Below, piece by piece: positions 23,192 to 63,915 of a stretch of DNA of 64,000 nt. The notes under the pieces are model-generated. The model was not told the origin of the DNA and searched no databases. It saw nothing but the letters and a program-made list of their open reading frames with translations. Position numbers and translations under genes: made by a program. The DNA comes from Populus alba (taxonomy: Eukaryota; Streptophyta; Magnoliopsida; Malpighiales; Salicaceae): positions 20,634,147-20,698,146 of the forward strand of contig NC_133297.1 of NCBI RefSeq assembly GCF_005239225.2, given 5' to 3'. Within the stretch, counting starts at the first letter, position 1; each line of letters begins with the position of its first letter.

Positions 23192-23199
23192 TATTTATA
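23192..23199 (-). promoter_or_regulatory. LTR TATA box, inverted
   Basis: TATTTATA on the plus strand is TATAAATA on the LTR sense strand, equivalent to 12690-12697. Confidence 0.65.
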
Positions 23200-23590
23200 C
23201 TACCCATCAAATGAAATGTGTTGTTTAGGGGTTGGTTTAGGTGTGTTCTTATCCTTGTTTGGTTTATCTAAAACCAGTTTTACCCCTCCCTCCCAGCTCT
23301 GCGTCACTGTTGATTGAGAAATCGGCAGCGAAAACTGCATCACTGCCGATTTCTACCTCGGCAGCAAAAACTGCATCGCTGCTGATCAAGAAATGGGCAG
23401 CAAAAAACTGTGTTGTTGCCGATTTCTGTATCGGTAGTGAAGGCTGCGTCGCTGCCAAATCCAGAATCGGCAACGAAAACTGCATCGCTGCCGATTTCTG
23501 CATCGACAGCGAAAACTGCATTCATCATCATCTCTCTCTCTATATATATATATATATTTTTTTTTTTTTCCTTTGGGTGTTTACATTAAC

Positions 23591-25923: not shown

Positions 25924-25928
25924 CACCT
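25924..25928. repeat. Target-site duplication CACCT, left copy
   Basis: CACCT precedes TGTAACAACCC at 25929 and is repeated at 35444-35448 after GGGTGTTTACA, bracketing the Tekay-type unit. Confidence 0.85.
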
Positions 25929-28583: not shown

Positions 28584-28585
28584 GT

Positions 28586-28597
28586 TGGTATCAAAGC
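28586..28597 (+). other. Primer-binding site, initiator tRNA-Met
   Basis: TGGTATCAAAGC, two bases after the LTR end, differs at one base from the usual TGGTATCAGAGC used by chromoviruses. Confidence 0.85.
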
Positions 28598-38561: not shown

Positions 38562-38567
38562 AGTTTT

Positions 38568-38584
38568 TGGCGCCATTGTCGAGG
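38568..38584 (+). other. Primer-binding site, tRNA-Asp, mutated
   Basis: TGGCGCCATTGTCGAGG matches the tRNA-Asp complement at 14 of 17 bases. All three differences are transitions. Confidence 0.8.
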
Positions 38585-38787
38585 AGGTAAATTCTTGTAT
38601 AAATTATAATATTTATTTTATTTTCTCTTTTCACTTTTCATTTTATCTAACTTTTATTTTGTTTGTTTTGTTTCTTTTTCTTCTCTTTTCTTTTCTTCCT
38701 TTATTCTCCTCTTACATGTGCATGAGAGTTTGGTCACGTATATTAAGTGGTAGACTTTGTAGGGTATCCTCATCATTTTCAGAAAAT

Positions 38788-40285
38788 ATGGTCGAAGAAG
38801 ATAATCAATCGCTTCATAATAAGAATAATGAGAATAACCGTATGAGAACACTTAGAGACCACATGAATCCCACAAGAACAAGTGCACCCTCATGCATAGT
38901 TTTCTCTCCTGATGCATCTCATTTCAATTTTAAGCCAGACATTATTCAACTTTTACCTTTTTATCATGGCTTAGACCTAGAAAATCCATACTTGCATTTA
39001 AAGGAATTTAAGGAGGTCTGTAACACCTATAATGACTCAAATTGTAGCATGAACACCATTAGATTAAACTTTTTCCTTTTTCATTAAAAGATAAAGCTAA
39101 AACATGGCTATAAAATTTGAGACCAGGATCTGTTCATGCTTGGGATGAAATGCAATAATAATTTTTAAAGAAGTTTTTTCGTCTCACAGAACAAACTCTT
39201 TCAAAAGACAAATCATCATTTTCACTCAAAAGCTAGGAGAAACATTTTACCAATATTGGGATAGGTATCGAGACTTGCTTAATACTTGCCCTCATCATGA
39301 TTTTGAAACATGGAGATTGGTTTCACAATTTTATGAAGGGTTAACACCTAGAGATAGGCAAATGGTTGAATTGATGTGCAATAGAACTTTTGAAGATAAA
39401 GACCCTAATGAAGCAATGGAGTAACTAGACTTGCTAGCCGAAAATGCTCAAAATTAAGACACCACAGGTATTTATGAGGTACCAAGTAAAACTCAACCTT
39501 ATACATCTAGTGGAGGTATGCACAACCTTAAGGAAGATTATGACCTCCAAGCCAAGTTTGCATCTTTAGCTAGAAAAGTCGAAGCACTTGAATTGAAAAA
39601 GAGTGGTCAATTAAAATATGTTCAAGACATTGTGTGTCAAATCTATGAAACCAATGAACACTCAACAAATGATTGCCCAACTTTGCCTTCTTTTAGGAAA
39701 ACCCTCCATGAATAAGCTCATGATTTAAACAGTTTTTAAAGGCCCAATCATAACCATACTCACAAACATATAACCCTGGTTGGAGAAACCACCCTAAATT
39801 TAAGTTGGAAGAGTGATAATAATAATGCATAAACTTCACAGCCACCGTTTCAAGCACACCATAATTTCCAAAATTCTCATGGATATGCACCTCCTTATGC
39901 TCCACCTCCTAGAAGAAATCTTGAGGAAACATTGCATGCATTCATTGAAAAGCAAAAGGAAATCAACACTCAACTTGCTCAAGGGATGGCAAAATTTAAA
40001 GATTCTCTTGCAAAGTTAACATCTGCTCTCAGTTTCCAAGAGAAAGGTAAGTTTCCATCTCAACCACAACAAAATCCAAAAGGGCAATACAATGCAAACA
40101 CAAGTAGTTCTAGAAGCCAACACATGAATCAAGTCAAATCAGTCATCACTCTTCGTAGTGGTAAGGTTAGTGAAAAACCCACTCTTGAACCTTGTGAGAA
40201 AGATGATGAGTCTATCTCTAAGGATAAGGAAGGGGTTGAATCTGAACATTGGAAAGAAAAGGTTGATTCCCCGCCAACACTCTGA
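38788..40285 (+). pseudogene. gag: Athila gag, broken
   Basis: Starts MVEEDNQSLH like the other two copies, with RTLRDHMNPTRTSAPSC and FYHGLDLENPYLHLKEF. A frameshift near 39070 and stops at 39421-39423, 39713-39715 and 39830-39832 break it. The C-terminal part (APPPRRNLEETLHAFIEKQ, LTSALSFQEKGKFPSQPQQ, VITLRSGKV) is well kept. The stop at 39830-39832 is shared with the copy at 1217-2577 but not with the minus-strand copy. Confidence 0.87.
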
Positions 40286-40297
40286 TTTCCTCATGTC

Positions 40298-43200
40298 ATG
40301 ACCAAACAAAGGAAAGTCAACCACAACTCTAAAATCTTTGAAACTTTCAAACAGGTAAGGGCAATATACCTTTGTTGGATGCTATTAAACAGGTTCCTTC
40401 CTATGCTAATACTTCCATATTTGGTCTTTCAAAGTCTCAATCTAGGTGAGTTAAAACCAACTTCTGTAACTCTTTTACTTGCTAATAGATATGTAAAAGT
40501 GCCTAGAGGAATAGTTGAGGATGTGTTAGTACAAATTGATAAATTTATTTACCCTGTTGATTTTGTTGTCTTGGATACACAACTTGTTGAAGCATGTAAT
40601 TCAATTCCTGTAATTTTAGGACGTCCATTTCTTGCCACTTCTAATGCATTGATTAATTGTAGGAATGGACTGATGAAGCTATCATTTGGAAACATGACAT
40701 TGGAGATGAATATTTTCAACATTTACAAGCAACTTGGAGATGATAATGATTTACAAGAAGTGGACTTTATTGAAAAATTAGTTCATGATCAATTTCAAAC
40801 CACTTCTAGTGAAACTGAGATTAATAAATCTAATGATTTGCAAACGATCTACTTTCAAGAAGAATCAAAGGCATGTAATTGGAGACCACAAATTGAAGAA
40901 TTGCCACCACAATCAATTGAGTCCATACCTTCAAGTGTTCAACCACCAAAACCTGATTTGAAGCCATTATCATTCAATCTCAAATACTCATTTTTGGGAG
41001 AAAATGAAACTTTTTCTTTAATAATCTCTTCCAAACTTAATGCACGTCAAAAAGGTAAGTTATTACAGACTCTAAAAATGCACAAAAATGCATTAGGATG
41101 GACCATAACTGACATAAAAGGAATTAGCCCTTTGATTTGCACACACAGGATTTATTTGGAGGAAAATGCTAAACCCTCTAGAGAAATGCAACGAAGGCTT
41201 AATCCTAATATGAAAGAAGTAGTGGAAAATGAAGTCATTAAGCTTCTAGATAATGGAATCATTTATCCTATTTCTGACAGCAAATGGGTAAGTCCTACCC
41301 AAGTTGTACCCAAAAAATCTGAAGTCATTGTGATAACAAATGAGAAAAATGAGTTAATTCCAACTAGGACTATTACTGGTTGGCGCATGTGCATTGACTA
41401 TAGGAAACTTAATTCAATGACTAGAAAAGATCATTTCCCTTTACCTTTCATGGATTAAATCCTAAAAAGAGTTGCAGGTCATGAATTCTATTGTTTCCTA
41501 GATGGCTATTCAGGTTACAATCAAATTGAAATTGCATTGGAAGATCAAGAGAAGACTACTTTCACATGTCCATTTGGTACTTCTGCATATCAAAGGATGC
41601 TTTTTGGATTATATAATGCACCAGCCACGTTTCAAAGATGCATGCTTAGCATATTCAGTGATATGATTGAATGTTTTCTTAAGATTTTTATGGATGATTT
41701 TTCTGTTTTTGGTGATTCATTTGATGATTGTTTGACTAACTTGGAAAAGGTTTTGAGCATGTGTGAAGAGAAGAATCTTGTAGTGAATTGGGAAAAATGT
41801 CACTTTATGGTAACAAACGACATTGTACTTGGTCACATTGTTTCATTGAAAGGAATTGAGGTTGACAAATCTAAAATCGAGTTAATTGTCAACTTACCAA
41901 CACCAAAATCTGTTAAAGATGTTAGATCATTCTTAGGACATGCTCGTTTTTACAGAAGGTTCATCCAAGATTTTAGTGTAATATCTAAGCCCTTGAGTAA
42001 CCTTTTAACAAAGAATAATATTTTTGAATGGATTGAATATTGTGAAGAAGCCTTTGTTAAACTAAAAAAATTGTTTACTTCTGCTCCTGTCATTCAACCT
42101 CCTGATTGGTCATTACCTTTTGAAATAATGTGTGATGCTAGTGATTATGCCATAGGTGCTGTTTTGGGACAAACAAAAGATAAGAAACCATATGTGATTT
42201 ATTATGCAAGTAAAACTTTAAATAGTGCTCAAATGAATTACACCACCACTAAAAAAGAATTACTTGTAGTAGTATTTGCATGTGATAAATTTAGGTTTTA
42301 TCTTGTTGGCTAACCTGTTGTTGTTTTTAGTGATCATGCAACATTGAAATATCTTCTTTCTAAGAAAGATTTTAAGGCTAGATTGGTGCGATGGATTTTG
42401 TTTCTTCAAGAATTTGATATCACAATCAAAGACAAGAAAGGTACTGAAAATATTATCGCAAATCATTTGTCAAGATTAACAACAGATTCAAAATTTGACA
42501 TCACACCAATCGATGACTATTTTCCCGATGAATTTTTACTTTCTGTTTCTACAATGCCTTGGTTTGCTAATATTATTAATTTTCTTATTTCAGGACAATT
42601 GCCAGCTCATTGAAGTACTCAAGACAAAAGAAAGTTCTTGAACGAAGTGAAGAACTTTTATTGGGATTACTCGTATTTATTTAAATATTGTCCTGATCAA
42701 ATATGAGGTAAGTAGTGTCATTAAATTTTATCATTTTGAGGCATGTGGGGGTCATTTCTCGTCAAAAAAGACAACTGCAAAAATCTTACAAAGTGGATTT
42801 TACTGGCCCACCATGTTCAAGGGCTCACATGCATTCTGCAAAATTTGTGAAAATTATTAAAAGTTGGGATCTATTTCAAAACGTCACATGATGTCTTTAA
42901 ATCCTATTCTTGTCATTGAGATGTTTGACTGTTAGAGTATAGATTTCATGGGTCCATTTCCTCCATCATTTGGTTTCGTATACATATTAGTTGCAGTAGA
43001 TTATGTTTCAAAATGGATAGAGGAAATTCCAAGTCGAAACAATGATCACAAAACAGTGATAAAGTTTTGAAAGACAATATTTTGAGTCGATTTAGAATCC
43101 CTCGAGCTATGATAAGTGATGATGGAACACATTTTTGGAAAAAGCCATTTGATTCTTTAATGAAGAAATATGGAATCACATACAAAGTTTCCACCCCTTA

Positions 43201-43828
43201 TCACCCTTAGACAAGTGGACAAGTAGAGCTTGCTAATAGGGAGATCAAATAGATCTTAGAGAAAACAGTGAACCCTAATAGGAAAGACTGGTCTTTAAGA
43301 CTTAATGATGCACTTTGGGCTTATCGAACTACTTATAAAACATCATTAGGTACGTCACTTTATAGACTAGTCTATGGAAAACCTTGTCACTTGCATGTGG
43401 AAATTGAACATAAAGCTTATTAGGCTATTAAAGCTTTCAATTCAAACCTTGATGATGCTAGTCAGCTGCGAAAATTGCAAATAAATGAGCTTGAGAAAAT
43501 AAGAAATGATGCATATGACAATTCAAGAATTCATAAAGCAAGAATCAAAGAGTTTCATGACAAGAAAATACTGAGGAAAACATTCAATGTTGGTAAAAAT
43601 GTCTTGCTTTATAATTCTCGACTCCATTTATTTCCTAGAAAACTAAGATCAAGATGGAGTGGTCCTTTTATTGTGAAACATGTGTATCCATATGGGGCTT
43701 ATGATATCGAGAATCCAAAGAATGACAATGTTTTCAAGGTAAATGGACATCGTTTGAAAGTTTATTTTGACTATTTTTCGGTTGAAAATGACTCTATTGA
43801 ATTGAGTGATCCTGTATATAAAGCTTGA
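40298..43828 (+). pseudogene. pol: Athila pol: protease remnant, RT, RNase H, integrase; broken
   Basis: The protease keeps LGELKPTSVTLLLANRYVKV and VILGRPFLATSNALIN but has lost the DLGAS active-site segment that the minus-strand element retains. RT follows: WRMCIDYRKLN, a stop at 41456-41458, then FGTSAYQRMLFGLYNAPATF and the catalytic FMDD at 41687-41698. RNase H has IMCDASDYAIGAVLG and TTKKELLVVVFACDKFRFY, with a stop at 42311-42313. Integrase is degraded at 42640-43250 (MISDDGTHF, YHP*TSGQVELANREIK) but intact in its C-terminal part ([19 protein letters not shown]). It ends at 43826-43828. Confidence 0.9.
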
Positions 43829-44026
43829 TTCATTTTCTCACATTGTTTTGTGTTTTGTTTTGGTTTTGCTAGTCTCTCTCTCACCCCGGTCAAATGGCGG
43901 ATAATGGTACTCCATGACTTAAGTCAGCTCTTTCAGTTTCCCATAATAACTTATATCTATGTATATTTGTACAATTCTTTGCTCTTTCTCCCTTTTTTGA
44001 ATCTTTTTCCCAATTTTCATTTAAAA

Positions 44027-44576
44027 ATGGACACCACTCTTAAAAAATTAAAAAAGGTATTTTTTCGCTTTGCCTCCAAATGCGATTAGAAAAATTTACC
44101 ATGCTAGGTGTGCAAGATTGAGGTTGTTAATGAATCATGGAATTCTTGAAGATATTTGCTGGCTAATTGAAGCAAAGGTCCAATTATCAGGTGAATCCTC
44201 TAATTCTTTCATTTCACACATGCTTGGAACAGGAAAAAACACTTTTGCAAAGAAACGTCATGCAAAACGACTGAAAGTCTGTCACATATATGCTAGATGG
44301 ACTTGTAATGCGACATGTCGTTCTTTAGGAATGGTATTTGTAAATCATGAAGATAAAATACAATTTATTAAGGATGGCCTGAGTAAGGGGTCTTTAGATA
44401 ATCTTATGTTGACCCTTGAGATGCATTCTAGTGGAGATGTGCATCATGTAATTCATGATTTATGGACACAATTCCATAAAGAACATGCTCAATTTAGTCT
44501 TGGGAATCTAACTAAAAAAGACCCTATTTGCCAGTTTTTAAGAAATCTGGATGGGAAGCCTATCCCCGACCTATAG
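44027..44576 (+). pseudogene. Unidentified Athila-borne ORF downstream of integrase
   Basis: I do not recognise this protein. It starts MDTTLKKLKKVFF, shifts frame near 44070 and continues KIYHARCARLRLLMNHGI ... KRLKVCHIYARWTCNATCRS ... to PIPDL* at 44576. The minus-strand element has a homologue at 57925-58474, where the segment reads VCQICARWTCNAT in the parallel position and suggests a CX2CX4CX3C metal-binding cluster. There is no signal peptide or membrane segment, so it does not look like the env-like protein of some Athila elements. It lies about 200 bp after integrase and 240 bp before LOG. Confidence 0.65.
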
Positions 44577-44743
44577 AGGGCGTTTAAGCCGTTCTTGGAT
44601 GTAAAACCAAGGAAAGATGCGAGCCACAATCACAACTACCTGTATATAAACATGCTTTTTCAAAATAAATAATTAATAAAGAGAGAGAGATACTATAGTT
44701 GGCCTACATATATATGGTATGATTGCATTTTCAATTTCTCATC

Positions 44744-44750
44744 TATAAAT
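44744..44750 (+). promoter_or_regulatory. TATA-like box before the LOG homologue
   Basis: TATAAAT lies 66 bp before the LOG ATG. The surrounding stretch (TTTTCAATTTCTCATC before, TCTTCTCTTAC after) is nearly identical in the minus-strand element (57744-57750). It may be a promoter taken up with the gene; no expression evidence is available. Confidence 0.4.
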
Positions 44751-44815
44751 TCTTCTCTTACTTCCCTTCATTTCTACTCAACCCATACATTCATCAAATA
44801 TAGAAGTGTGTAGAA

Positions 44816-45469
44816 ATGACAGGTTACTCAAGTCATCGCATAAGAAATATTTATGTTTTTAGTGGATCTAGTCTTGGGAAAGAAAAAGAGTTTTTAGAAT
44901 CAGCAAACCATCTTGGTCAGGTACTAGTTAAGAGAAAGATTCATTTAGTGTATGGGGGAGGCAGCCTTGGTTTAATGTAGGGTGTGGCAATGACTGCATT
45001 TTTAGGAGGCAGTCAAGTTTTGGGGGTTATCCCCAAAGCTTTAGCAAATGGAGACATCATTGAAAAAACAATTGGAGAGGAACTACAGGTCCCCACAATG
45101 TCTGATCGATTGAATGCCATGTTTAACCATATTGATGCCTTTATTGCCTTACCAGGTGGTTTGGGCACATTGGAAGAGATCTTTCATATTTCCTCTTGGG
45201 CCCAACTGCACATTCACCATAAACCTATAGGTTTGTTAAATGTTAATGGTTTCTATGATAAATTGTTGTCTTTTTTTAATCAAGCTGTGGAACAAGAATT
45301 TCTAACATCTTCAGCACGACAAATCATAATCTCTGCTGCTATTGCTGAACAATTGATTGACCAACTATAATCTTTCATCCCTTTCATTGATCCCTACATG
45401 AGTCGCCTAAATTGGTCAACTAAGAAAAGCCGTAAAAAGCTTAGATTAGATTTGAGCCTTCATTTGTGA
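44816..45469 (+). pseudogene. LOG-like cytokinin phosphoribohydrolase homologue, two stops
   Basis: LOG enzymes release active cytokinin bases from cytokinin riboside 5'-monophosphates. The frame from 44816 to the TGA at 45467-45469 is 217 codons with no frameshift or intron. LOG signatures: VYGGGSLGLM, LGVIPKAL, MSDRLNAMFNH, DAFIALPGGLGTLEEIF and ISSWAQLHIHHKPIGLLNV. The catalytic Arg (MSDR) and Glu (TLEE) are kept. Premature stops are at codon 55 (TAG, 44978-44980) and codon 185 (TAA, 45368-45370). By eye about 80-85% of residues match the minus-strand copy. It lies in the element's sense orientation before its 3' LTR. Confidence 0.9.
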
Positions 45470-46079
45470 AACCTTGTATCTTTTGGTTTTATTAATAGCA
45501 TATTATTTTGTTTTGTTACTTCTTATATTTGTTTAAGTGTGTTTCAGGTTTGTCATTTTTCGCTATTTCAGGTGATGTCTTCTATGCTTTATTTTTCTAC
45601 CTTAGGACATTAAGGGCAATGTTTCGTTTTGGCTGGTGGGAGAGGATAGTAGTTGACATAAAAAAAATACTAACTTACTAATTGTTTTTGCTATTATTAA
45701 AACCATTTGACAAAATTGTTATTAGGATGGCAGAGTAAGGAGGAAATTTTATTTACTCTTGAGATGCATCTTAGTAAGTATCATCACCAAGATCTATCAG
45801 AATATTCTTGAAATATTCAGGTTTACAAACTCTCACATTGTTATCACTTGATCCTGCTCGTATACTCATTTAACAAGTATTCTTAAACCTTCATTTTCAC
45901 ACACACACTTTAACATATGATTGTGAGTTGCACATTGGATTATTATTATATTATTTATGTTCTTTTGTTAAACGTAACAACTAAGGAAAATGGATAGTAT
46001 ATAATTTGTAAATTTTTTTTGATAATATTGATGATAATAAAAACGTAGATAAGTTTGGTTTCGTAGCCTCCCTAACCTA

Positions 46080-46330
46080 AGCAATTAAGCTCGAAGGGGT
46101 GTTTTAACACCTAATACCCTAAAGTCAACCGACTTAGGAGCTATTGGCCCAAAGCTTGTTACATGGGTTAAGGAGAAAAGCTTAAGGGAATCAAACATTG
46201 TACTATCTACGTATCAGTATCTGCAACCCGAGTTACTAAGCTCGTAGGGGTGTCTCAACACCGAATGCCTTAAGACAAACTGGTCTGAGAGTCATTAGCC
46301 GAAAACTCGTTACATGAGTTAAAGATGCAT
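46080..46330 (+). repeat. Duplicated hairpin motif in the element 3' region
   Basis: Two related copies, about 151 bp apart (TAAGCTCG at 46086 and 46237). Each holds a GGTGT-NNNN-ACACC hairpin (46098-46111 and 46249-46262) and a second hairpin, AAGTC/GACTT (46122-46135) in copy one and AGAC/GTCT (46273-46286) in copy two. The second stem changes on both sides together. The minus-strand element has the same pair at 56215-56430. Confidence 0.7.
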
Positions 46331-46673
46331 TGTGTTTTAATTTGTATGTGTATATAAATAAATAATAACAAAAAAAAAAACAAAAAAAGAAAGAAAAAAT
46401 AATAATAATCCCAACCCAAGGAAGTTAACTTTAAACATTAGAACACAATATTGTTTTCTTCCAACAAAAGCCCCATCATCTATGTTTTCATACATTGAGC
46501 ACATAAAAAAAGGTCTATTAATATCTTGTTAAAAAAAAATGAAGCAGAAATATAAATTTAATGAGTTTGTTTATCTCGATAGATTAATGGAAGTTGAATG
46601 ATGAATGCCTTGCTTTGTAGAATTTGCAAATTGTTTTTCTATTTTAACACTTTGATTACTAGGGACTAGTAAT

Positions 46674-46690
46674 AAGGTGGTTGGGGGGTG
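46674..46690 (+). other. Polypurine tract
   Basis: AAGGTGGTTGGGGGGTG directly before the LTR start TGATTAG at 46691. Confidence 0.7.
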
Positions 46691-48159
46691 TGATTAGTAC
46701 TTAAAAGTGTATTTTTATTGAGGTTTTATCAAATAAATAAAAGGATTGATTGATGAGTTTAAGTATTGAAATTGAAAGGACAAAAAGAGGGCCAAACTTA
46801 TAAAAGAGATGTTGGTGTAGTCTAAACTGGAACACTGTTTGGTAATTGGGTCATATCTCGAGTTCTAGATGTGCAAATGACCTTAATTGTTTGGAAAGAT
46901 TCGGTAAGACATATGCCTATAACTGTCATGTGGAGTCCAAGATTTTAAAAAGGCCATTTTCAAGTCCAAATTATAGCAACAACGGAGAAGTCTGAATCTG
47001 TCCTCTAGACTAGACACTGTTTAGTGTTCAACCCATATCTCGAGTTCTAGAAGTCCAAATGACCTCAATTTTTTTTTTTCTGGAAAAGATAAGACAATTT
47101 CCTAGAACTTTCATATGTATAGATGGTTCCAGTTATGATATTAGCAATGACGTTTTATTCAGACAAGAAGATAAGGATTTTCACCAAGTCAAGAGTTGGC
47201 CACCCACTCAACAATTAGTCATCAAATCAATAGTTCCAAATTTTGGCCTATAAAAGGAGGCATTTGCCATGCATTTAAGCATCTCGGTGTTCAGATCAAG
47301 ATCATGCTCTTGCTCTCTTTCTTTGTATTTTGTAATGTTTAAGTTTTATTTTATGTTATATTAATGTCTTGTTTGTGCTTTTCATTTCCTTTCATTTACT
47401 TATATAATTATGTTCTTATCTTGTTTATTTATGTTTCTTTCTTTCATTATGTTTAGCTAAATCTATTATGTCAAGGTGAAAATATTACACTAACGGTGTA
47501 AGAATAAGTATAGTATAAACTCCACATGGACTTTAATGCTTGATACTAACATATTTTATATTTATTATCTTGCTCACTCTTCATACCTTGCTTGTTAAAT
47601 GGTTAATCTAGATTTGTGTTGAACAACCCTTGGTACAAAAAATTCTTGGCACTTTCATAGCTCAACCGTATGGTATAACCTACACCTGCGCTATGAAAGG
47701 TACTTGATTTGTTGTTAACATAAGCTATCACCATGAATACCTGATAATATTTACAAGTATTGGCATTACTTGAATAAGATAAATCATGTTATCAATTTAA
47801 AATCTGATTGGAACCTCTTTTGTGTGTGGTTTCCAGTTGAGTAATCAGAGTTTATATTATCCTTGCTTAAAGTACCATTAGTGGATCCTCTAACCTTGAC
47901 ATTCGTTTTTATCATTGTTTAATCCTCACATTAATCGTACATCTTAAAGTCCTCTTTATTATTCCTATTACTATTATATTACTATCATTATCATTACTAC
48001 TACTACTAATTATTATTGTTGTTGTTGTTGTTGTTATGTTGTTGTTATTTATAATTTATATAGTTAACCTCCCTGTAGTTCGACCCTGGTCTTACCGGGT
48101 TATTTATTACTTCAACACTCTTGTACTTGGGAGAAGACATCAATCTTTTGGTCGTGTCA
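46691..48159 (+). repeat. 3' LTR of the plus-strand Athila-type element, complete
   Basis: 1469 bp from TGATTAGTACTTAAAAG to GGTCGTGTCA, with TATAAAA at 47249-47255 and a short ATT/GTT microsatellite at 47955-48050. It defines both LTR termini of the family. Confidence 0.88.
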
Positions 48160-52728: not shown

Positions 52729-53989
52729 ATGAAAGATGAAGAACGTGCTCAACGTGATGCCTATTTTCAAGAACAGTTAGAGTCTCTAAAAACAAGCATG
52801 GCTCATCTCACCAGCTTACTTGAGCAAACATTAAGAAATACCTTTGGTGAAGGTCCTTCTAACAGACTGGTCACCTTTGATTTGGCTCCTACTACAGTTC
52901 AACCTGAAGAAAGAATGAGCGAATATGGTTAGGAGCTTCAGCAAAATCCAACATTTGTGCAATCAACGACACCTACACCAGCCCCAATAGTCATGGAGGT
53001 ATCTGCTAACGAGTCCCATAAGGCTAAGTCATTTGATAGCATTGATCAAGCTAAGATAGAAGGGCTGGAAGCCAGACTCAAAGTCATTGAAGGGGTAGAT
53101 TTATATGACTTGGTACGGGTAGCAGAGATGTGTTTAGTCCTAAATGTGGTTGTCCCAAAGAAATTTTGTGTTCCTGAGTTCATCAAATACAGTGGAACAC
53201 AATGCCCCATGCCTCATCTCAGGTCCTACTAAAATGGCAGAGGTAGTACATGATGAAAAACAACTAATGCACTTTTTCCAAGACAGTTTAAGCGGGGCAA
53301 CATGGAGCTGGTATATGAGATTGGACAACACAAAAATTCAGAGCTGGAAAGATCTGGTGGATGCTTTTGTCAAGCAATACAAGTACAACATGAACATCGC
53401 TCCCGACAAAACCAGCTTGTCTACTCTAGAGAAAAGGGACAAAGAAAGCATAAGGGAATATGCTCAAAGATGGTGGGAATCAGCTGCTTAAGTACATCCC
53501 CACTTCTAGACAAAGAGATGGTCTCTTTATTTGCCAACACACTCAAGGCACCCTATTACGAACATGTGATGGGTAGTTTGGCCCAACAATTCACTGATGT
53601 TGTGGAAGTGTGTGAACGCATAGAGCAAGGTGTCAAAAGTGGTAGAATTTCTGCACCCATCGAGAAAATAGGCTTTGAAAGAAAAGAGGTCTACCATGTT
53701 GAAGATGGCTACAGGGTACGAAAAACTCATCCTAAAATTACCATACTCCATCCCAAATTGCCAACATCAAAAAACCTGAACCCAAAACTTTCAAGCCAAA
53801 AGCCAAATTGGAAATTACCAAAAGGTTCAAGAACAACTACCTCCACTACCGCTACCCCTGAATGAGATGTATCAAAAGCTATTGAGCATCGGGCAAATAG
53901 CTCCAGAACCTTTAACACTTGTGCAGCCACCTTATCCTAATTGGTATAAGCCAAAACTCAATTGTGAATACCATGCTGGTATTGCTTGG
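52729..53989 (+). pseudogene. gag: Tat/Ogre gag, 5' part, broken
   Basis: Starts MKDEERAQRDAYFQEQLESL, a coiled-coil-like N-terminus. The capsid core follows: VPKKFCVPEFIKYSGTQCP, a frameshift near 53228, MHFFQDSLSGATWSWYMRL, IQSWKDLVDAFVKQY and REYAQRWWESAA. Then come a stop, PLLDKEMVSLFANTLKAPYY and VCERIEQGVKSGRI. Further frame changes follow near 53715. It is cut at 53989 by the Athila-type insertion; the last codons (GIAW) join the part at 63791. Confidence 0.87.
53985..53989. repeat. Target-site duplication CTTGG, left copy
   Basis: Repeated exactly at 63791-63795, bracketing the minus-strand Athila-type element. Confidence 0.93.
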
Positions 53990-54112
53990 TGACACGACCA
54001 AAAGATTGATGTCTGCTCCCAAGTACAGGAGTGTCGAAGTAATAAATAACCCGGCAAGACCGGGATCGAACCACAAAGAGGTTAATTGTATAAATTATAA
54101 ATAACAATAGAA

Positions 54113-54390
54113 CAACAACAAAAAAACAACAACAACAACAACAATAATAATAACAATAATAGTAATAATAATAATAATAATAATACTCAGTACGTGGCGT
54201 TGTTATACCTGAGAATGATCTAAAAGATCGGGTCACAAGTTTTCAGCCTATATACTGAGTTTTATGAAAAGATCAAAGAGATATATTATATAATATAAAC
54301 AGAATGCAAATAATAATAATAATAATAAAAATAATAATAGTAATAATAATAATAATAATAATAATAGCAGCAGTAGTAGTAGTAATAAAA
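54113..54390. repeat. AAC/AAT microsatellites in the LTR
   Basis: Runs of (AAC)n and (AAT)n at 54113-54185, then (AAT)n with AGC/AGT variants at 54302-54390, separated by a unique block with GAATGATCTAAAAGATCGG. Small ORFs rich in Tyr or Ile/Val here are repeat artefacts. Confidence 0.9.
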
Positions 54391-55149
54391 GAAGAAGATG
54401 AAGAAATTAATGAGAACTTTGAGATGAAAGATTAATGTAAGGATTAAACAATGATAAAAATAAATGTCAAGGTTAGAGGATCCACCAATGGTATTTCAAA
54501 CAAGTATAGTATAAACTCTTATTACTTAATTTGGAAACCACACACAAAAGAGGTTCCAATCGAATGATTTGTCATTAATAGCTCATTATAAATTATTAAC
54601 ATGATCATATTAATTATCTTATTTACATAACACCAAACTTTTAAATATTGTCAGGAATTCATGATATTAACTGATGTTAACAACAAATCAAGTTTCTTTC
54701 ATAGCTCAGGTGTAGGTAATACCATACGGTTGGGCTTTGAGAGTGTCAAGCATTTGTTGTACCAAGTGTTATACAACACAAATCTAGATTAACTATTTAA
54801 CAAGCAAGGTATTAAGAATTAGTAAGATAAAAAGATAAGACATGTTAATATTAAACATTCAGGTCCATGTTGAGCTTACACTATATTTATTCTTACACCA
54901 TTAGTGTAACCTTTTCACCTTGACATAATAAACTTAGCTAAACATAATGAAGAAGAGAAACATAAATAAACAAAACAAGAACATAAAGAAAATACAAGTT
55001 AACTAAGGAAAGGAAAGGAAAGGAAAAGCATAAACAAGATATTAATGAAAGCAAAACTTAAAAATTACAAAAACAAATATAAAGAGAGAAATAAAGAGCA
55101 TGAACTTGATCTAAACAACCAAGCCTCCAAATACATGGCAAATGCCTTC

Positions 55150-55156
55150 TTTTATA
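55150..55156 (-). promoter_or_regulatory. LTR TATA box, inverted
   Basis: TTTTATA on the plus strand, TATAAAA on the LTR sense strand, in the conserved GGCC-TATAAAA setting. Confidence 0.65.
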
Positions 55157-55833
55157 GGCCAATATTCAGAATTATTGATTTGATAAATAATTGTTGAGTG
55201 GGTGGCCAACTTTTGACTTGATGAAAATCCTTATCTTCTTGTCTGAATAAAACAAAAATGCTACCATCAGAACTGGGTCCACTGGAAAACATGAAAGTTG
55301 TAGGAAATTGACTCAGCTTTTCAGGAAAAAAAAATGGAGGTCATTTGGACTTCTATAACTCCAGATATGGGTCAAACACTAAACAATGTTCGGGCTGTAG
55401 GACAAATTCGGACTTCTCCGTTGTTGCCATAATTTGGACTTGAAAACGGCCTTCTTAGATCTTGATGAAAAAATAAAAGTTGTAGGCCTATGTCTTACTG
55501 AATCTGTGTAAAATTTTGAGATCATTTGGACATCTAGAACTTGAGATATGACCTAATTACGGAATAGTGTTCCAGTTTGGACTACACCAACATCTCTTTT
55601 CTAAGTTTCACCCTCTCTTTATCTTCACAAATTTCAGTAGTTGAATTCATCAATCAATCCTTTGATTTATGTGGTAGGCCTGCATTTAAGATGAACATTT
55701 ACCATATATTAAGGCATTTTATAGTATTAGACTTGTTATTAGAAAACATGCTTTAGTTAAGGAGTTATTGATACTTTAAGTGCAAAATAATGATATAAAA
55801 CTTTGATCAATATGCACTTTTAAGTACTAATCA

Positions 55834-55850
55834 CACCCCTAACCAGCTTA
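55834..55850 (-). other. Polypurine tract
   Basis: On the minus strand AAGCTGGTTAGGGGTG leads straight into the LTR start TGATTAG at 55833. Confidence 0.7.
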
Positions 55851-56214
55851 TTACTAGTCCCTAGTAATCAAAGTGTTAAAATAGAAAAACAATTTGCAAG
55901 TTCCACAAAGCAAGGCATTCATCATTCAACTTACTTTAATCTATCTAGATAAACAAACTCTCATTAAATTCATATATCTACTCAATACCTCTTAAACAAG
56001 ATATTACTAAACATTTCTTTTGTGCTCAAAATATTAACATATAGTTATGGGGCTTTACTTGGAAGAAAAAACAAATTTTTGTTCTAATGTTTAAGGTTAA
56101 CTTTCTTAGGTTGGGATTATTATTTCTTTTTCTTTTTCTTTATTTATTTATTTATTTATTTATATACACATACAACTTGAAACACAATGTATCTTTAACC
56201 CATGTAACGAGTTT

Positions 56215-56430
56215 TAGGCTAATGACTCCCAGACCAGTTGGTCTTAGGGCATTAGGTGTTGAGACACCCCTACGAGCTTAGCAACTCAGGTTGCAAATAC
56301 TGATACGTAGATAGTGCAATGTTCGATTCCCTTAGGCTTTTCTCCTCAACCCATGTAACAAGCGTTGGGCCAATAGCTCCCAAGTCAGTTGACTTTAGGG
56401 TATTAAGTGTTAAAACACCCCTTCGGGCTT
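56215..56430 (-). repeat. Duplicated hairpin motif in the element 3' region
   Basis: Homologue of 46080-46330. Hairpins on the plus strand: AGACC-AGTT-GGTCT (56231-56244), GGTGT-TGAG-ACACC (56255-56268), AAGTC-AGTT-GACTT (56382-56395) and GTGTT-AA-AACAC (56407-56418). All stems are perfect. Confidence 0.72.
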
Positions 56431-57024
56431 AATTGCTTAGGTTAGGGAGGCTACGAAACCAAACTTATCTACCTTTTATTATCATTATTTTTTTTTTTGC
56501 AAATTATATACTATCCCTTTCCCTTAGTTGTTACCTTTAACAAAAAAACATAAATAATGTAATAATCCAATGTGTAACCCACAATCATATGTTAAAGTGT
56601 GTGTGTGAAAATGAAGATTTAAAAATACTTGTTAAATGAGCATATAAGTATAATCAAGTGCTACCAATACGAGAGTTTGTAAACCTAAATATTTCAAGAA
56701 GTATTCTGATAGACCCTGTTAAGAATGTTTACTAAGATGCGTCTCAAGAGTCACTTTTAACAAAAGACCTCTTTTTACTCTGCCATCCTAGTAACAACAG
56801 TTTTGCAAATAGTTTATGAAATAGAAAACACATTTTTTTTTTTAATTATCAACTACTATCATTTCCCCCCAACCAAAATGAGACATTGTTCTCAATGTCT
56901 TAAGGTAGAAAGATAGAGTATAGAAGACATCACCTGAAATAACGAACACTGACAAACCTGAACACACTTAAACAAATATAAGAAACAACAAAACACAATA
57001 ATAAAACCAAAAGACACAAAGTTT

Positions 57025-57678
57025 TTACAAACGAAGGCTCAAATCCAATCTAAGCTTTTTACAGCTTTCCTTAGTTGACCAATTTATGCGACTCATGGAG
57101 GGATTAATTACAGGGATGAAAGATTGTAGTTGGTCAATCAATTGTTCAACAATAGCAGCAGAGATTATGATTTGTCGTGCTGAAGATGTTAGAAATTCTT
57201 GTTCCATAGCATGATCAAGAAAAGACAACAACTTATCATAAAAACCATTAACATTTAACAAACCTATGAGTTTATGGTGAATGTGCACTTGGGCCCAAGA
57301 GGAAATATGAAAGATCTCTTCCAATGTGCCCAGACCACCTGGTAAGGCAATGAAGGCATCAGCATGGTTAAACATTGCATTCAATCGATCAGACATTGTG
57401 GGGACCTGTAATTCCTCTCCAATTGTTTTTCCAATGATGTCCCCTTGTGCTAAAGCTTTGAGGACAACCCCCAAAACTTGATTACCTCCTAAAGATGCAA
57501 CTATTGACACTCCCCCCATTAACCCAAGGCTGCCTCCTTCATACACTAAATTAATCTTTCGCTCAGCTAGTACCTGACCAAGATGATTTGCTGATTCTAA
57601 AAACTCTTTTTCTTTCCCAGGACTGGATCCACCGAAAACACAAATATTGTTTATGTGATTACTTGAGGAACCTGCCAT
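57025..57678 (-). CDS. LOG-like cytokinin riboside 5'-monophosphate phosphoribohydrolase, intact ORF
   Basis: The family hydrolyses N6-modified adenosine monophosphates (cytokinin nucleotides) to free cytokinin plus ribose 5-phosphate, in cytosol and nucleus. The frame is 217 codons, the normal length for plant LOG, with no intron; host LOG genes have several. Motifs: NNICVFGGSSPG (Rossmann-type start), VYEGGSLGLMG near residue 50, MSDRLNAMFNHADAFIALPGG, GTLEEIF, SSWAQVHIHH and GLLNVNGFYDKLL. The catalytic Arg and Glu positions (MSDR, TLEE) are kept. Odd points are YEGGS for the usual YGGGS, PGGLGT for PGGYGT, and VLKAL for IPKAL. ATG 57678 matches the start in the plus-strand copy; upstream in-frame codons to 57771 lie in the leader. 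Enzyme activity is not shown; the YEGGS change could impair it. Confidence 0.9.
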   Translation of the reverse strand: MAGSSSNHINNICVFGGSSPGKEKEFLESANHLGQVLAERKINLVYEGGSLGLMGGVSIVASLGGNQVLGVVLKALAQGDIIGKTIGEELQVPTMSDRLNAMFNHADAFIALPGGLGTLEEIFHISSWAQVHIHHKLIGLLNVNGFYDKLLSFLDHAMEQEFLTSSARQIIISAAIVEQLIDQLQSFIPVINPSMSRINWSTKESCKKLRLDLSLRL

Positions 57679-57743
57679 TTCTACACACTTCTGTATTTGA
57701 TGAATGTATAGGTTGAGTAGAAATGAAGGGAAGGAAGAGAAGA

Positions 57744-57750
57744 ATTTATA
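57744..57750 (-). promoter_or_regulatory. TATA-like box before the LOG homologue
   Basis: ATTTATA on the plus strand (TATAAAT in sense) lies 66 bp before the LOG ATG, in a stretch almost identical to 44720-44815 of the other element. Confidence 0.4.
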
Positions 57751-57924
57751 GATGAGAAATTGAAAATGCAATCATACCACCTATATGTAGGCCAGCTATA
57801 GTCTCACTCTCTTTCTCTCTCTTTATTTATTTATTTATTTTTAAAAAGCATGTGTATGTACAGGTGGTTGTGATTGTGGCTCACATCTTTCCTTGGTTTT
57901 ACGTCGAAGAACGACTTAAACGCC

Positions 57925-58474
57925 CTCTATGGGTCGGGGATAGGCTTCCCATCCAGTTTTCTTAAAAACTGGCAAACAGGGTTTTTTTAGTCAAATTCCC
58001 AAGACTAAATTGAGCATGTTCTTTATGAAATTGGAGTCATAAATCATAAATTGCACAATGCACATCTCCACTAGAGTGCGTCTCAAGAGTCAATAAAAGA
58101 TTATCTAAAGACCCCTTACTCAGGCCATCCTTAATGAATTGTATTTTATCTTCACGGTTTACAGATACCATTCCTAAAGAACGACATGTCGCATTTCAAG
58201 TCCATCTGGCACATATTTGACAGACTTGCAGTCGTTTTGCATGACGTTTCTTTACAAAAGTGCTTTTACTTGTTCCAGGCATGTGTGAAATGAAGGAATT
58301 GGAGGACTCACCTGATAATCGGATCTTTGCTTCAATCAGCCAACAAATATCTTTAGGAATTCCATGATTCATTAACAACCTCAATCTTTCACACCTAGCA
58401 CGGTAAATTTTTGTAATCACATTTTGAGGCAGAGCGGAAAAATACTTTTTCAATTTTTCAAGAGTGGTATCCAT
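57925..58474 (-). pseudogene. Unidentified Athila-borne ORF downstream of integrase
   Basis: Homologue of 44027-44576; no recognised domain. It starts MDTTLEKLKKYFSALPQNV at 58474 and stays in frame to a TGA at 58196-58198, which replaces a Cys codon (TGT) of the other copy in ARWT(C)NAT. Sequence beyond remains similar for about 80 codons. The full protein would be about 180 residues, basic, with a Cys-rich centre. Confidence 0.65.
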
Positions 58475-58693
58475 TTTCAAATGAGAATTGGGTGAGAGAT
58501 TCAAAGAAAGAAGAAAGAGCAGAGAATTGCACAAATATATACACAGATATCAATTATCATGGGAAACTGAAAGAACCGACTTAAAAGTCACAGAGTACCG
58601 TTATCTGCCATTTGACCGGGGTGAGAGAAACTAGCAAAACAAAAGTCACACCAAAAAAGGAACACAAAAAAAAATGTGAGAAAAACAAAATAA

Positions 58694-58972
58694 TCAACCT
58701 TTATCTAAAAGATCATTCAAACCAATGGATTCATTTTCACCAGGAAACTCATCAAAGTAAGCTTTCAAACGATGTCCATTTACCTTCAAAACATTGTCAT
58801 TCTTTGAATTCTCAATATCAAGGGCCCCATAAGGATACACATGTTTCAAAATAAATGGACTGCTCCATCTTGATCTTATTTTTTCAGGAAATAAATGGAA
58901 TTGAGAATTATAAAGCCAAACTTTTTGACAATTTTCACAAGTTTTGCAGAATGCATGCGTGTCCTTAAACAT
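58694..58972 (-). pseudogene. Integrase remnant: zinc-finger end fused in frame to C-terminal domain
   Basis: KDTHAFCKTCENCQK (end of the HHCC finger) runs directly into [39 protein letters not shown] and VNGHRLKAYFDEF. Compared with 42835-43828 of the plus-strand element about 0.75 kb, the whole DDE core, is missing without frame loss. Confidence 0.88.
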
Positions 58973-58993
58973 GGTGGGCCAATAAAATCCTTT

Positions 58994-59860
58994 TTATAAG
59001 AATTTTGCAGTTGTCTTTTTTGATGAGAATTGACTCCCACATGCTTCAGAATGACAAAGTTTAATGACACTACTTACCTCATTGTCAAGAATGCATCTTT
59101 GAAATTTTTGATTAGGACAATATTTGAATAAGTTAGGGTCGTCCCAATAAAAGTTCTTCACTTCGTTCAAAAACTTTCCTTTGTCTTCAGTACTCCAGTG
59201 AGCTGGCAAATCTCCTGAAGCAAGAAAATTGATATTTTTAGCAAACCAAGGCATTGAAATAAGATAAAGTAAGGATTTGTCAGGAGAGTAATCATCGATT
59301 GGTGGGATGTTAGATGTCAAATCTGTTGTCACTCTTGACAAAAGATCAGCATCAACATTTTTTGTGTCTTTTTCATCCATGATTTCTTCCTGAGAATAAA
59401 TCATTTGCAAATCTCCAGATTCATCCAATTTAATTTTACTCAAAGTAGATTCAAGTTGATCATGAACTAATTCTTTAATATGATCTACTTCTTGTAAATC
59501 ATTACCATCTCCAGGCTGCTTGCAAATCTTGAAAATATTCATCTCCAATGTCATGTTTCCAAAAGATAACTTCATAAGTCCATTCCTACAATTAATCAAT
59601 GCATTAGAGGTTGCAAGAAACGGACATCCTAAAATAACAGGAAATGAATTACATGCTTCAACAGGTTGCGTGTCCAAGACAATAAAATCCACAGGATAAA
59701 TGAATTTATCGACTTGTACTAACACATCTTCAATTATTCCTCTAGGCACTTTTACAGATCTATCGACAAGTAAAAAGTTACAGAAGTTGGTTTTAACTCA
59801 CCTAGATTGAGACTCTGAAAAATTGACTATGGAAGTAAATTCACACTAGCTCCAAGATCA
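58994..59860 (-). pseudogene. Protease remnant fused to the RNase H/integrase linker; RT deleted
   Basis: The protease active site DLGAS is at 59845-59859, followed by a broken segment. From 59749 the frame is open: PRGIIEDVLVQVDKFIYPVDF, VILGCPFLATSNALINC, SFGNMTLEMNIFKI. After QMIYSQEE near 59385 the reading jumps to DADLLSRVTTDL and SMPWFAKNINFLASGDLPAH, the segment after RNase H. Compared with 40850-42450 of the other element about 1.6 kb is missing, in frame. Confidence 0.88.
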
Positions 59861-60026
59861 AGTAAGGCTCTTTCAATTTTATGTTCTCTAATAAAGCAAG
59901 AAATTGTAGGACAACCAGGGTCTTTATATTTCAAAGCATTATTATTCTAAAGAATAACACTTACTTGTTCGGCTAAAAAGGCTTTCTTTTTCACATTCAT
60001 TTTTCTCTTCACAGTGCATAGATCTT

Positions 60027-61640
60027 TCAAAAATTTAGCATAGGAAGGAACCTGTTTAATAGCATCCAACAAAGGTATATTGATCCTTGTTTGAAAATTT
60101 CAAGGATTTCAGAATTGTGATTGACTTTCCTTTGTTTGGTCATGGCATGAGGAAATGGAAGTGCTGGCGGAGAATCAGTCTTTTCTTCACAATGTTCAAA
60201 TTCAACCCCTTCCTTAGCCTTAGAGGTTGACTCATCATCTTTCTCACAAGGTTCAAGAGTGGGTTTTTCAATAACCTTACCACTACGAAGAGTGATGACT
60301 GATTTGACTTGATCCATATGTTGACTTCCAGAACTACTTGCATTTGCATTGTATTGCCCCTTTGGATTTTGTTGTGGTTGAGATGGAAACTTACCTTTCT
60401 CTTGGAAACTGAGAGCAGATGTTAACTTTGCAAGAGTATCTTTAAAATCTGTCATGCCTTGAGCAAGTTGAGTGTTGATTGCCTCTTGCTTTTCAATGAA
60501 TGCATGCAATGTTTCCTCAAGATTTCTTCTAGGAGGTGGAGCATAAGGAGGTGCATATCCATGACAATTTTGGAAATTATGGTGTGCTTGAAATGGTGAC
60601 TGTAAAGTTTGTGGATTGTTGTTATCACTCTTCCAATTGAAATTTGGGTGATTTCTCCAACCAGGGTTGTATGTTTGCGAGTATGGGTTATGATTGGGCC
60701 TTTGGAAATTGTTTAAAGCATGGGCTTGTTTATGGAGGCATTCCTTGAAAGAAGGCAAAGTTGGACAGTCATTGGTTGCATGTTCATTTGTTTCACATAT
60801 TTGACACACAATGTCTTGAACAGATTTTAATTAACCACTCCTTTTCAATTCTAGTGCCTCGACTTTTCTAGCTAAAGATGCAAACTTGGCTTGGAGGTCA
60901 TGATCTTCTGTAAGGTTGTGCATACCTCCACTAGATGTATGAGTTTTACTTGGTGTCTCATAAGTACCTGTGGTGTCCCAATTTTGAGCATTTTCAGCTA
61001 GCAAGTCTAGGTATTTCATTGCTTCATTAGGGTCTTTATCTTCAAAAGTTCCATTGCACATCAATTCAACAATTTGCTTATCATTAGGTGTTAACCCTTC
61101 ATAAAATTGTGAAACCAATCTCCATGTTTCAAAACCATGATAAGGGCAAGTATTAAGCAAGTCTCGATACCTATCCCAACATTGGTAAAATGTTTCACCT
61201 GGTTTTTGAGTGAAAGTGATAATTTGTCTTTTGAAAGAGTTGGTTTTATGAGATGAAAAAAACTTCTTTAAAAATTGTTGTTGCATTTCATCTCAAACAC
61301 AAATGGATCCTGACCTAAGATTTTGTAGCCATGTTTTAGCTTTATCTTTTAATGAAAAAGGAAAAAGCTTTACTCTAATTGTATTCATGTTACAATTTAA
61401 GTCATTATAGGTGTTCCAAACTTCTTCAAATTCTCTCAAATCCAAGTATGAATTTTCTAGATCTAAGCCATGAAAAGAAGGTAAAAGTTGAATAATGCTT
61501 GGCTTAAAATTAAAATGGGATGCATCAGGAGGAAAAACTAAGCATGAGGGTGCACTTGTTCTTGTGGGATTCATGTGGTCTCTAAGTGTCTTAACACGGT
61601 TATTCTCATTATGAAGTAATTGGTTATCTTCTTCGACCAT
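60027..61640 (-). pseudogene. gag: Athila gag, nearly intact (two stops)
   Basis: The best gag of the window, one continuous frame of about 538 codons from MVEEDNQLLHNENN (61640). It has TLRDHMNPTRTSAPSC, LLPSFHGLDLENSYLDLREF, KPGETFYQCWDRYRDLLNTC, YNPGWRNHPNFNW, a QICETNEHATNDCP segment and the LRSGKV motif. Only two stops occur, at 61290-61292 (TGG to TGA in WDEM) and at 60831 (CAA to TAA). A frameshift separates it from the protease part. Confidence 0.9.
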
Positions 61641-61840
61641 ATTTTCTGAAAATGATGAGGATACCCTACAAAGTCTACCACTTAATGTACGTGACCAAAC
61701 ACTCATGCACGTGTAAAAAGAGAATAAAAGGAAGAAGAAAACAAAAGAAAAAGAAACAAAAGAAAAGAAACAAAGTTAGATATAAGAAAAGTGAAAAGCG
61801 AAAACAAAATAAAACTATAATTTGTACAAGAATTTACCTC

Positions 61841-61857
61841 CCCGGCAACGGCGCCAA
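61841..61857 (-). other. Primer-binding site, tRNA-Asp, perfect
   Basis: The plus strand reads CCCCGGCAACGGCGCCA, identical to the plant tRNA-Asp 3' end, five bases from the LTR end at 61863. Confidence 0.93.
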
Positions 61858-61984
61858 AAACTTGACACGACCAAAAGATTGATGTCTTCTCCCAAGTGCA
61901 AGAGTGTCGAAGTAATAAATAACCCGGCAAGACCGGGGTCGAACCACAGAGAGGTTAATTGTATAAATTATAAATAACAATAGA

Positions 61985-62040
61985 ACAACAACAAAAACAA
62001 GAATAACAACAATAACAACAACAACAATAACAACAATAAC

Positions 62041-62093
<53 letters not shown>

Positions 62094-62220
62094 TAATACT
62101 CAATACGTGGCGTTGTTATACCTGAGAATGATCTAAAAGATCGGGTCACAGGTTTCCAGCCTATATACTGAGTTTATGAAAAGATCAAAGAGATATATTA
62201 TATAATATAAACAGAATGTA

Positions 62221-62254
<34 letters not shown>

Positions 62255-62345
62255 GTAATAGTAATAGTAATAGTAATAGTAATAGTAATAATAATAATAG
62301 CAGTAGTAGTAATAGTAGTAGTAGTAGTAATAATAATAATAATAA
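61985..62345. repeat. AAC/AAT/AGT microsatellites in the LTR
   Basis: A (AAC)n-(AAT)n run at 61985-62100 and a (AAT)n-(AGT)n run at 62220-62345, longer than in the partner LTR. They explain the poly-Tyr and poly-Ile ORFs here. Confidence 0.9.
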
Positions 62346-63107
62346 AAGAAGAAGATGAAGAAATTAATGAGAACTTTGAGATGAAAGATTAATGTAAGGA
62401 TTAAACAATGATAAAAAATAAATGTCAAGGTTAGAGGATCCACCAATGGTATTTCAAATAAGTATAGTATAAACTCTTATTACTCAATTTGAAAACCACA
62501 CACAAAAGAGGTTCCAATCGAATGATTTGTCATTAATAGCTCATTATAAATTATTAACATGATCATATTAATTATCTTATTTACATAACACCAAACTTTT
62601 AAATATTGTCAGGAATTCATAATATTAACTGATGTTAACAACAAATCAAGTTTCTTTCATAGCTCAGGTGTAGGTAATACTATACGGTTGGGCTATGAGA
62701 GTGTCAAGCATTTGTTGTACCAAGTGTTATACAACACAAATCTAGATTAACCATTTAACAAGCAAGGTATTAAGAATTAGTAAGATAAAAAGATAAGACA
62801 TGTTAATATTAAACATTAAGGTCCATGTTGAGTTTACACTATATTTATTCTTACACCATTTGTGTAACCTTTTCACCTTGACATAATAAACTTAGCTAAA
62901 TATAATGAAGAAGAGAAACATAAATAAACAAAACAAGAACATAAATAAAATACAAGTTAACTAAGGAAAGGAAAGGAAAGGAAAAGCATAAACAAGATAT
63001 TAATGAAAGCAAAACTTAAAAATTACAAAAACAAATATAAAGAGAGAAATAAAAAGCATGAACTTGATCTGAACAACCAAGCCCCCAAATACATGGGAAA
63101 TGCCTTC

Positions 63108-63114
63108 TTTTATA
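63108..63114 (-). promoter_or_regulatory. LTR TATA box, inverted
   Basis: TTTTATA on the plus strand, equivalent to 55150-55156. In the 5' LTR this is the element's main promoter. Confidence 0.65.
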
Positions 63115-63790
63115 GGCTGAAATTCGGAATTATTGATTTGATAAATAATTGTTGAGTGGGTGGCCAACTTTTGACTTAATGAAAATCCTTATCTTCTTGT
63201 CTGAATAAAACAAAAATGCTAGTATCAGAACTGGGTCCACTGGAAAACATGAAAGTTGTATGAAATTGACTCAGATTTCTAGGAAAAAAAATGGAGGTCA
63301 TTTGGACTTTTAGAACTCCAGATATGGGCCAAACACTAAATATTGTTCGGGCTGCAGGACAGATTCGGACTTCTCCGTTGTTGCTATAATTTGGACTTGA
63401 AAACGGCCTTCTTAGATCTTGATGAAAAGATTAAAGTTGTAGGCCTATGTCTTACTAAATCTGTGTAAAAATTTGAGGTCAGTTGGACATCTGGAACTCG
63501 AGATATGACCTAATTACGAAACAGTGTTTCAGTTTGGACTGCACCAACATTTCTTTTCTAAGTTTTACCCTCTCTTTATCTTCACAAATTTCAGTAGTTG
63601 AATTCATCAATCAATCCTTTGATTTATGTGATAGGCCTGCATTTAAGATGAACATTTACCATATATTAGGGCATTTTATAGTATTAGACTTGTTATTATA
63701 AAACATGCTTTAGTTAAGGAGTTATTGATACTTTAAGTGCAAAATAATGATATAAAACCTTGATAAATATGCACTTTTAAGTACTAATCA

Positions 63791-63915
63791 CTTGGCATAA
63801 CATCCATGCCTACAACGCTTTCAAGAGAAAGCTTCTTCAATTAATCAAGGCCTGGTGGATAGAATTGGAACACGCTCCTAATATGAACATGAACCCACTA
63901 CCTAATCCTGCTTAA
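63791..63915 (+). pseudogene. gag: Tat/Ogre gag, 3' part
   Basis: After the target duplication the frame continues HNIHAYNAFKRKLLQLIK, then AWWIELEHAPNMNMNPLPNPA and TAA at 63913-63915. This matches the zinc-knuckle-like end of Tat/Ogre gag (the usual H...LK..IQ.LI..GW.....PN...NPLP pattern), confirming that 53985-63795 is an insertion. Confidence 0.85.

Follow-up and report, generated by a model that had tools for sequence, protein, structure and literature searches.

An intronless LOG-like gene inside an Athila-like LTR element of Populus alba and its apparently old element lineage

Two copies of an Athila-like LTR element, here called A and B, lie within the 64,000-nucleotide stretch of Populus alba DNA that we analysed (the window), and both carry a gene of the LOG (LONELY GUY) family. 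We lean toward the view that an intronless LOG was acquired long ago by the lineage of these elements and is retained after pol, and that the LOG of element B sits in a drifting deletion derivative. An earlier note on this DNA had recognized the LOG of element B and proposed that it was a host gene captured through mRNA and kept; element A, a LOG-bearing element in the same window, was absent from that finding. As a whole, the interpretation given in the note is partly supported.

The LOG frame and the elements that carry it

The minus strand at 57025–57678 contains an open, intronless frame of 217 codons (217 residues; the coordinates include the stop), and the plus strand of the same interval has 16 stops. 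The translated protein matched the Pfam family Lysine_decarbox with E=1.4e-33 (116.4 bits; curated cut-off of 27). Residues 8–201 matched the solved Arabidopsis LOG-family chain 2a33 (At2g37210) with E=2.3e-52 and 46% identity, and a second solved chain, 1ydh (At5g11950), matched with E=9.3e-47 and 43% identity. Because of these E values, the likeness of the frame to LOG is far beyond chance. Nearly the whole protein aligns with these two plant LONELY GUY enzymes, and R98, PGGxGT, and E120-E121 are kept; it differs from them in being intronless, in its location inside a retroelement, in its limited identity, and in a basic LxLxL tail. The LOG family is marked by the motif PGGxGTxxE and an upstream R, both of which are present (PGGLGTLEE and R98). 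The nucleotide-binding glycine loop of the family is YGGG, and in this copy it reads YEGG, so that the loop is not intact. The closest named match, among the best 120, was a Populus alba protein at 87% identity. The feature is real, and its identity as a LOG was rightly named in the earlier note.

Element B extends from 53990 to 63790 on the minus strand, as determined from its LTRs, its target-site duplication, and comparison with element A. The 5' LTR (61863–63790) and the 3' LTR (53990–55833) are 95.5% identical over 1844 aligned bases (K=0.047; 93.1% identity by blastn). A primer binding site, TGGCGCCGTTGCCGGGGA, lies beside the 5' LTR at 61839–61856 on the minus strand and is, we presume, of the tRNA-Asp type. 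The element is bounded by the exact CTTGG duplication that had been described (53985–53989 and 63791–63795), and when the flanks are joined with one CTTGG removed, a frame remains open across the empty site. The insertion is therefore a clean and true one, and the assembly join in the flanking sequence against which the note had cautioned is not the case. We take the interrupted frame to be the gag of another element.

Reading from the 5' LTR, all on the minus strand, element B contains a first gag piece (61293–61706) without a Pfam match of its own, assigned by its order and its match to element A; a second gag piece (60831–61286) that matches Retrotrans_gag with E=8e-9; a later gag piece (60027–60809) that is 64–70% identical to the Acer gene models P0196 and P0181; a pol remnant (58994–59749), an ORF without a match in the Pfam scan; and ORF-X (58196–58534), recognized as an ORF with a protein match, for which no Pfam family was matched and which precedes LOG in the Acer gene model P0161 as well. 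The LOG itself lies in the same orientation as gag, downstream of pol and ahead of the 3' LTR, just where it had been placed. The regions 40868–42461 and 42875–43594 of element A have no blastn match in element B, which bears out the statement that most of pol is gone from the latter.

Element A lies on the plus strand at 37286–48159, where 37286 is the start of the match to the 5' LTR, the left end not having been found; its 3' LTR occupies 46691–48159, and the LTR pair gives K=0.083. It retains a piece coding for reverse transcriptase and RNase H (41459–42313; Pfam RVT_1 and RT_RNaseH on 41537–42313) and an ORF-X (44070–44576) that is 54% identical to Acer P0161, all on the plus strand. ORF-X is placed between pol and LOG in both elements. 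The LOG copy of element A (44816–45469, plus strand) contains two in-frame stops and no frameshift relative to that of element B, the two aligning without gaps over 652 bases at 90.6% identity. No third LOG was found in the window by tblastn with two LOG proteins at E values up to 1e-3, the A and B loci being the only ones to match.

We refer to A and B as Athila-like on the basis of the primer site and the extra ORF after pol, which are features of this group. LTRs, a short target duplication, gag, and reverse transcriptase, as expected of the Athila lineage, were all found, the reverse transcriptase and RNase H in element A only. The Athila ORF-1 domain PF03078 had no match among the scanned ORFs of the window; according to the part of PMC6317226 covered, it is present in 16% of Athila elements, so it is not a defining trait.

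Several other features were observed in and around these elements. Upstream of LOG in both copies (57679–57800 on the minus strand for B, 44694–44815 on the plus strand for A), a TATA-like CTATAAAT is found 73 bases before the ATG, followed by a pyrimidine-rich stretch and then by an AG shortly 5' of the ATG; from its letters, this region could possibly serve as a promoter of its own or as a splice acceptor. Rearranged LTR and gag pieces of the same element family, with matches of about 77–96%, are present at 1–3684 and 7300–8329, and no LOG was detected in these pieces by tblastn. The region 20588–28586 contains a long inverted repeat (25981–26964 against 27553–28536, 94%) surrounded by TCGGCAGCGA-rich short repeats with spacings of about 36 and 76 bases. 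At 28918–33492 there is a gypsy-like element of another kind, in which gag and pol are long open frames (Retrotrans_gag, E=1.2e-16 on 28918–29520). A scan against viral contigs matched three stretches, none of them coding for a relative.

A LOG lineage apparently shared with other trees

LOG uptake by LTR elements was reportedly described by Steinbauerova et al. in 2011 (Genetica), in two Athila-like elements that have additional ORFs resembling LOGL4; the LOG-similar ORF is said to be located in the 3' portion of the element, as in element B.

The earlier note had left it as a question whether such capture was known, and the answer is that LOG uptake by LTR elements, Populus included, is already in print. 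A screen of the LTR elements of 121 angiosperm genomes (PMC9289625) reported, in the portion of the article covered, a YgdH (LONELY GUY) domain in LTR-retrotransposon consensuses of Citrus sinensis and Citrus clementina, and also in Populus trichocarpa once a count filter was removed; the article calls this result in line with Steinbauerova et al. 2011. These consensuses resemble the elements studied here in joining an LTR element to an added LOG-type domain, Populus included. They differ in that the matter occupies two sentences of the covered text, which contains no tail, no LOG tree, and neither Acer nor Xanthoceras. The same part of PMC9289625 describes an AlkB-like m6A demethylase in orchid Gypsy elements, likewise an enzyme of host type that has become fixed in a Gypsy lineage of plants; activity in vitro is reported for the orchid enzyme, whereas the element LOG is known here from its sequence. 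Among the matches listed, titles and the beginnings of abstracts revealed no further report that links Athila or retrotransposons with LOG, cytokinin, or LONELY GUY. In the portions covered, the main text of a review (PMC13317346) has no mention of Athila or LONELY GUY, a study of Athila in Salicaceae centromeres (PMC12046899) does not use the word cytokinin, and a description of 13 Populus LOG genes (PMC3866579) contains no word starting with "transposon". The joint gag, ORF-X, and LOG lineage of Acer, Xanthoceras, and Populus, and its tail, were not found in the parts of the literature examined.

Evidence for such a joint lineage comes from gene models of other trees. In Acer saccharum, the models P0181 and P0196 join a gag of this element type to LOG, and in Acer yangbiense the model P0161 joins ORF-X to LOG. 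In Xanthoceras sorbifolium, a gag stretch lies beside LOG in P0132 (38 matched residues, E=1.7e-9) and in P0142 (31 matched residues, E=4.7e-8). Identity between the window and Acer is 64–70% for gag, 54% for ORF-X, and 52–60% for LOG. The late acquisition that the note had offered as one reason for the open frame is ruled out by these Acer and Xanthoceras models, in which LOG is joined to pieces of the same element genes.

We examined the relationship of the element LOGs to host LOGs with a tree of 72 rows, made up of 67 of the 198 proteins listed by three protein searches, the two window copies, and three solved-structure chains. A single branch with support of 99/94, unchanged when the tail columns were left out, separates 54 element-type rows from 17 host-type rows. 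The comparison with host LOGs that the note had called for places the element rows on one branch, apart from host-type rows that include no host LOG from Populus, Acer, or Xanthoceras. These host-type rows are 15 proteins listed by the third search and two Arabidopsis chains; 12 of the 15 are organism-named, their status as ordinary host genes being taken from names and sequence, and three (P0173, P0187, P0193) were assigned by sequence. Of the six Acer-type rows in the tree, two are named Acer. The 141 proteins termed Populus-type were so classed by exclusion, eight of them being Populus-named (P0016, P0038, P0044, P0077, P0090, P0103, P0122, P0125), and the 20 termed "other" (Reevesia, Parasponia, and further sources) are LOG proteins of putative element context. 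The identity of Xanthoceras P0144 is 66% to host-type P0167 and 59–66% to the Populus-type rows shown, and the third search ranked host-type rows among Populus-type rows; what separates element from host LOGs is therefore the tree, together with the element genes that are shared, and not raw similarity.

Related elements might instead have captured LOG repeatedly and independently in Sapindales and in Populus, from host paralogues outside the sample. The composition of the tree, which holds no Salicaceae, Acer, or Xanthoceras host LOG, and the position of P0144 favour this possibility. The tail described below differs as well, LxLxL being found in no Sapindales row. Against separate captures stand the order ORF-X then LOG in both Acer and Populus together with the same gag, the single 99/94 branch, and the fact that no host-type row appears among the best 120 matches of either of two protein searches. 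We consider separate captures unlikely. Three proteins of Populus trichocarpa and P. nigra that carry the annotation "LOGL10" (P0103, P0122, and P0125) are placed by the tree within the branch of element LOGs; by their sequences, they may belong to elements or represent a domesticated copy.

Apparent constraint in the lineage and decay of the copy in element B

Conservation among the element rows follows that of host LOGs. For the 34 rows of Xanthoceras, Acer, and Populus type taken together, mean entropy was 0.33 at host-invariant sites and 0.71 at host-variable sites (p=1.4e-9); the Populus-type, Sapindales, and other rows, each analysed separately, differed in the same direction. Across four row sets, site variation in element rows tracks that in host LOGs with rho of 0.34–0.62. 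Neutral copies should lack such a pattern, which therefore argues against neutral copying. R98, P113, G115, G117, and T118 are invariant in an alignment of 52 hand-picked rows (A1). Among the 128 Populus-type rows with a length of 210 or more (of 143, window copies included), R98 and E121 are each kept in 123, and P113 and G47 each in 110; the common variants in conserved loops are P113L (15 of 128) and G47E (13 of 128). Most rows keep G47, and the YEGG loop of the copy in element B is a defect of that copy and not of the lineage. Judged from these alignments, the element LOG lineage looks older, kept over time, and constrained, and the suggestion that LOG was kept is probably correct when applied to the lineage.

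The copy in element B itself gives a different impression. As a reference we used 73 sites at which the host-type rows do not vary and which other element rows mostly retain. This copy departs from them at 10, equal to the median of 121 other Populus-type rows; four departures each were counted in P0103, P0077, and P0090 from Populus, and none of 160 rows matches all 73. The changes at host-invariant residues include G47E in the glycine loop, P73L, L131V, and V158M. Most of the named Populus proteins compared also have F9I, A29S, and H96S, which are therefore marks of the lineage. Between copies A and B, the two DNA copies available, dN/dS for LOG was 0.64 (NG86), 0.83 (ML), or 1.02 (YN00). 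The corresponding NG86 values for gag and ORF-X were 0.33–0.48, below that of LOG, and 0.33–0.85 over two methods; the protease region was left out because of poor alignment. Divergence between A and B (K) was 0.101 for LOG, 0.092 for the spacer between ORF-X and LOG, 0.109 for ORF-X, 0.102 for gag, and 0.174–0.179 for the LTRs. The spacer adjoining LOG is as similar between the copies as LOG is, so that the comparison of rates yields no contrast.

The earlier note had taken the open frame as a hint of selection and had proposed dN/dS between element copies as a check. That ratio, from two copies only, gives no support for selection on this copy, nor do the two stops in the sister copy or the four substitutions named above, and the hint is not sustained. 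Based on the sequence, we regard the copy in element B as a decaying, ageing member of its lineage, whose open frame is no sign of selection on it.

These same data bear on whether the whole lineage might be a neutral passenger, a copy of a host LOG mRNA caught in an element and copied without use, with the open frame owed to chance and youth. A dN/dS as high as 1.02, the stops in element A, departures at 10 of 73 sites with no row keeping all of them, and a non-significant comparison (p=0.11) of variants that are shared with those that occur singly among the 128 Populus-type rows are consistent with this explanation. It is opposed by the agreement of element-branch site variation with host LOGs in all four row sets and by the recurrence of frames and a common tail across lineages, though the protein database favours open frames. 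Passive carriage seems to us no more probable than separate captures.

The C-terminal tail and the proposed history of the element LOG

The LOG of element B ends in KKLRLDLSLRL, a basic stretch followed by LxLxL (57028–57060, minus strand), the C-terminal RLDLSLRL conforming to LxLxL, which together with DLNxxP is a form of the EAR-type motif. When the final 25 residues of each protein are considered, LxLxL occurs in 123 of the 141 Populus-type rows and in 16 of the 20 other ones, but in 0 of 22 Sapindales and 0 of 15 host-type rows, where the absence is not independent evidence for P0173, P0187, and P0193, these being host-type by sequence; shuffling of the last 25 residues produces it in 9% of Populus-type and 5% of other rows. 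Where the end region is present, the Sapindales proteins terminate in KKRRLA, KRRRLD, or similar. On the tree calculated without tail columns, the tail pattern requires three changes. LxLxL is a published repression-motif consensus (EAR) in the covered parts of PMC6283911 and PMC9956375. Our guess is that the tail might act as an EAR-type repression motif or as a nuclear signal.

A more radical proposal is that the element LOG no longer takes part in cytokinin chemistry and would act as a nuclear repressor-recruiter, its tail binding TOPLESS-type co-repressors and perhaps muting host genes or anti-element defence. The frequency of LxLxL outside Sapindales, far above that in shuffled tails, and its agreement with the published consensus favour this proposal; the motif is short, however, it is absent from the 22 Sapindales rows, and the mostly kept loop residues, R98 and E121 among them, argue for use as an enzyme. 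We consider such a change of function improbable. An assembly join, or a host LOG beside rather than within the element, can be dismissed, being ruled out by the exact CTTGG, the 95.5% LTR pair, and the open empty-site frame, and opposed by element A, which carries the same gene in the same place.

We therefore return to an old uptake of LOG followed by its retention. Host plant LOG genes typically have introns. The element LOG is intronless, and uptake was therefore probably mediated by mRNA, in keeping with the earlier proposal. In the history that we favour, a single old uptake of this kind would have been followed by retention of LOG as an extra gene after pol in an Athila-like lineage. 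The protein made by active copies would still release free cytokinin from cytokinin nucleotides, and a cell that expresses the element would be pushed toward division, which could favour spread and transmission of the element. Outside Sapindales, the basic LxLxL tail may direct the protein to the nucleus and to TOPLESS-type co-repressors. Element B would be a deletion derivative whose LOG has drifted since insertion. A bolder form of this history, in which a single uptake that predates the divergence of Sapindales and Malpighiales gave rise to a separate LOG lineage kept across several plant orders, with a tail in most members that could join cytokinin release to TOPLESS-type repression, is tentative, and we give it only slightly more credence than separate captures or passive carriage.

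If an element keeps a hormone-activating enzyme, a shift in the growth of expressing cells could favour those cells that transmit it. Some Populus "LOGL10" gene models may be element genes, inflating counts of the host LOG family. It is the lineage that gives the finding its value: a retroelement LOG that seems to be old and to have been kept, with a tail that suggests a testable function.
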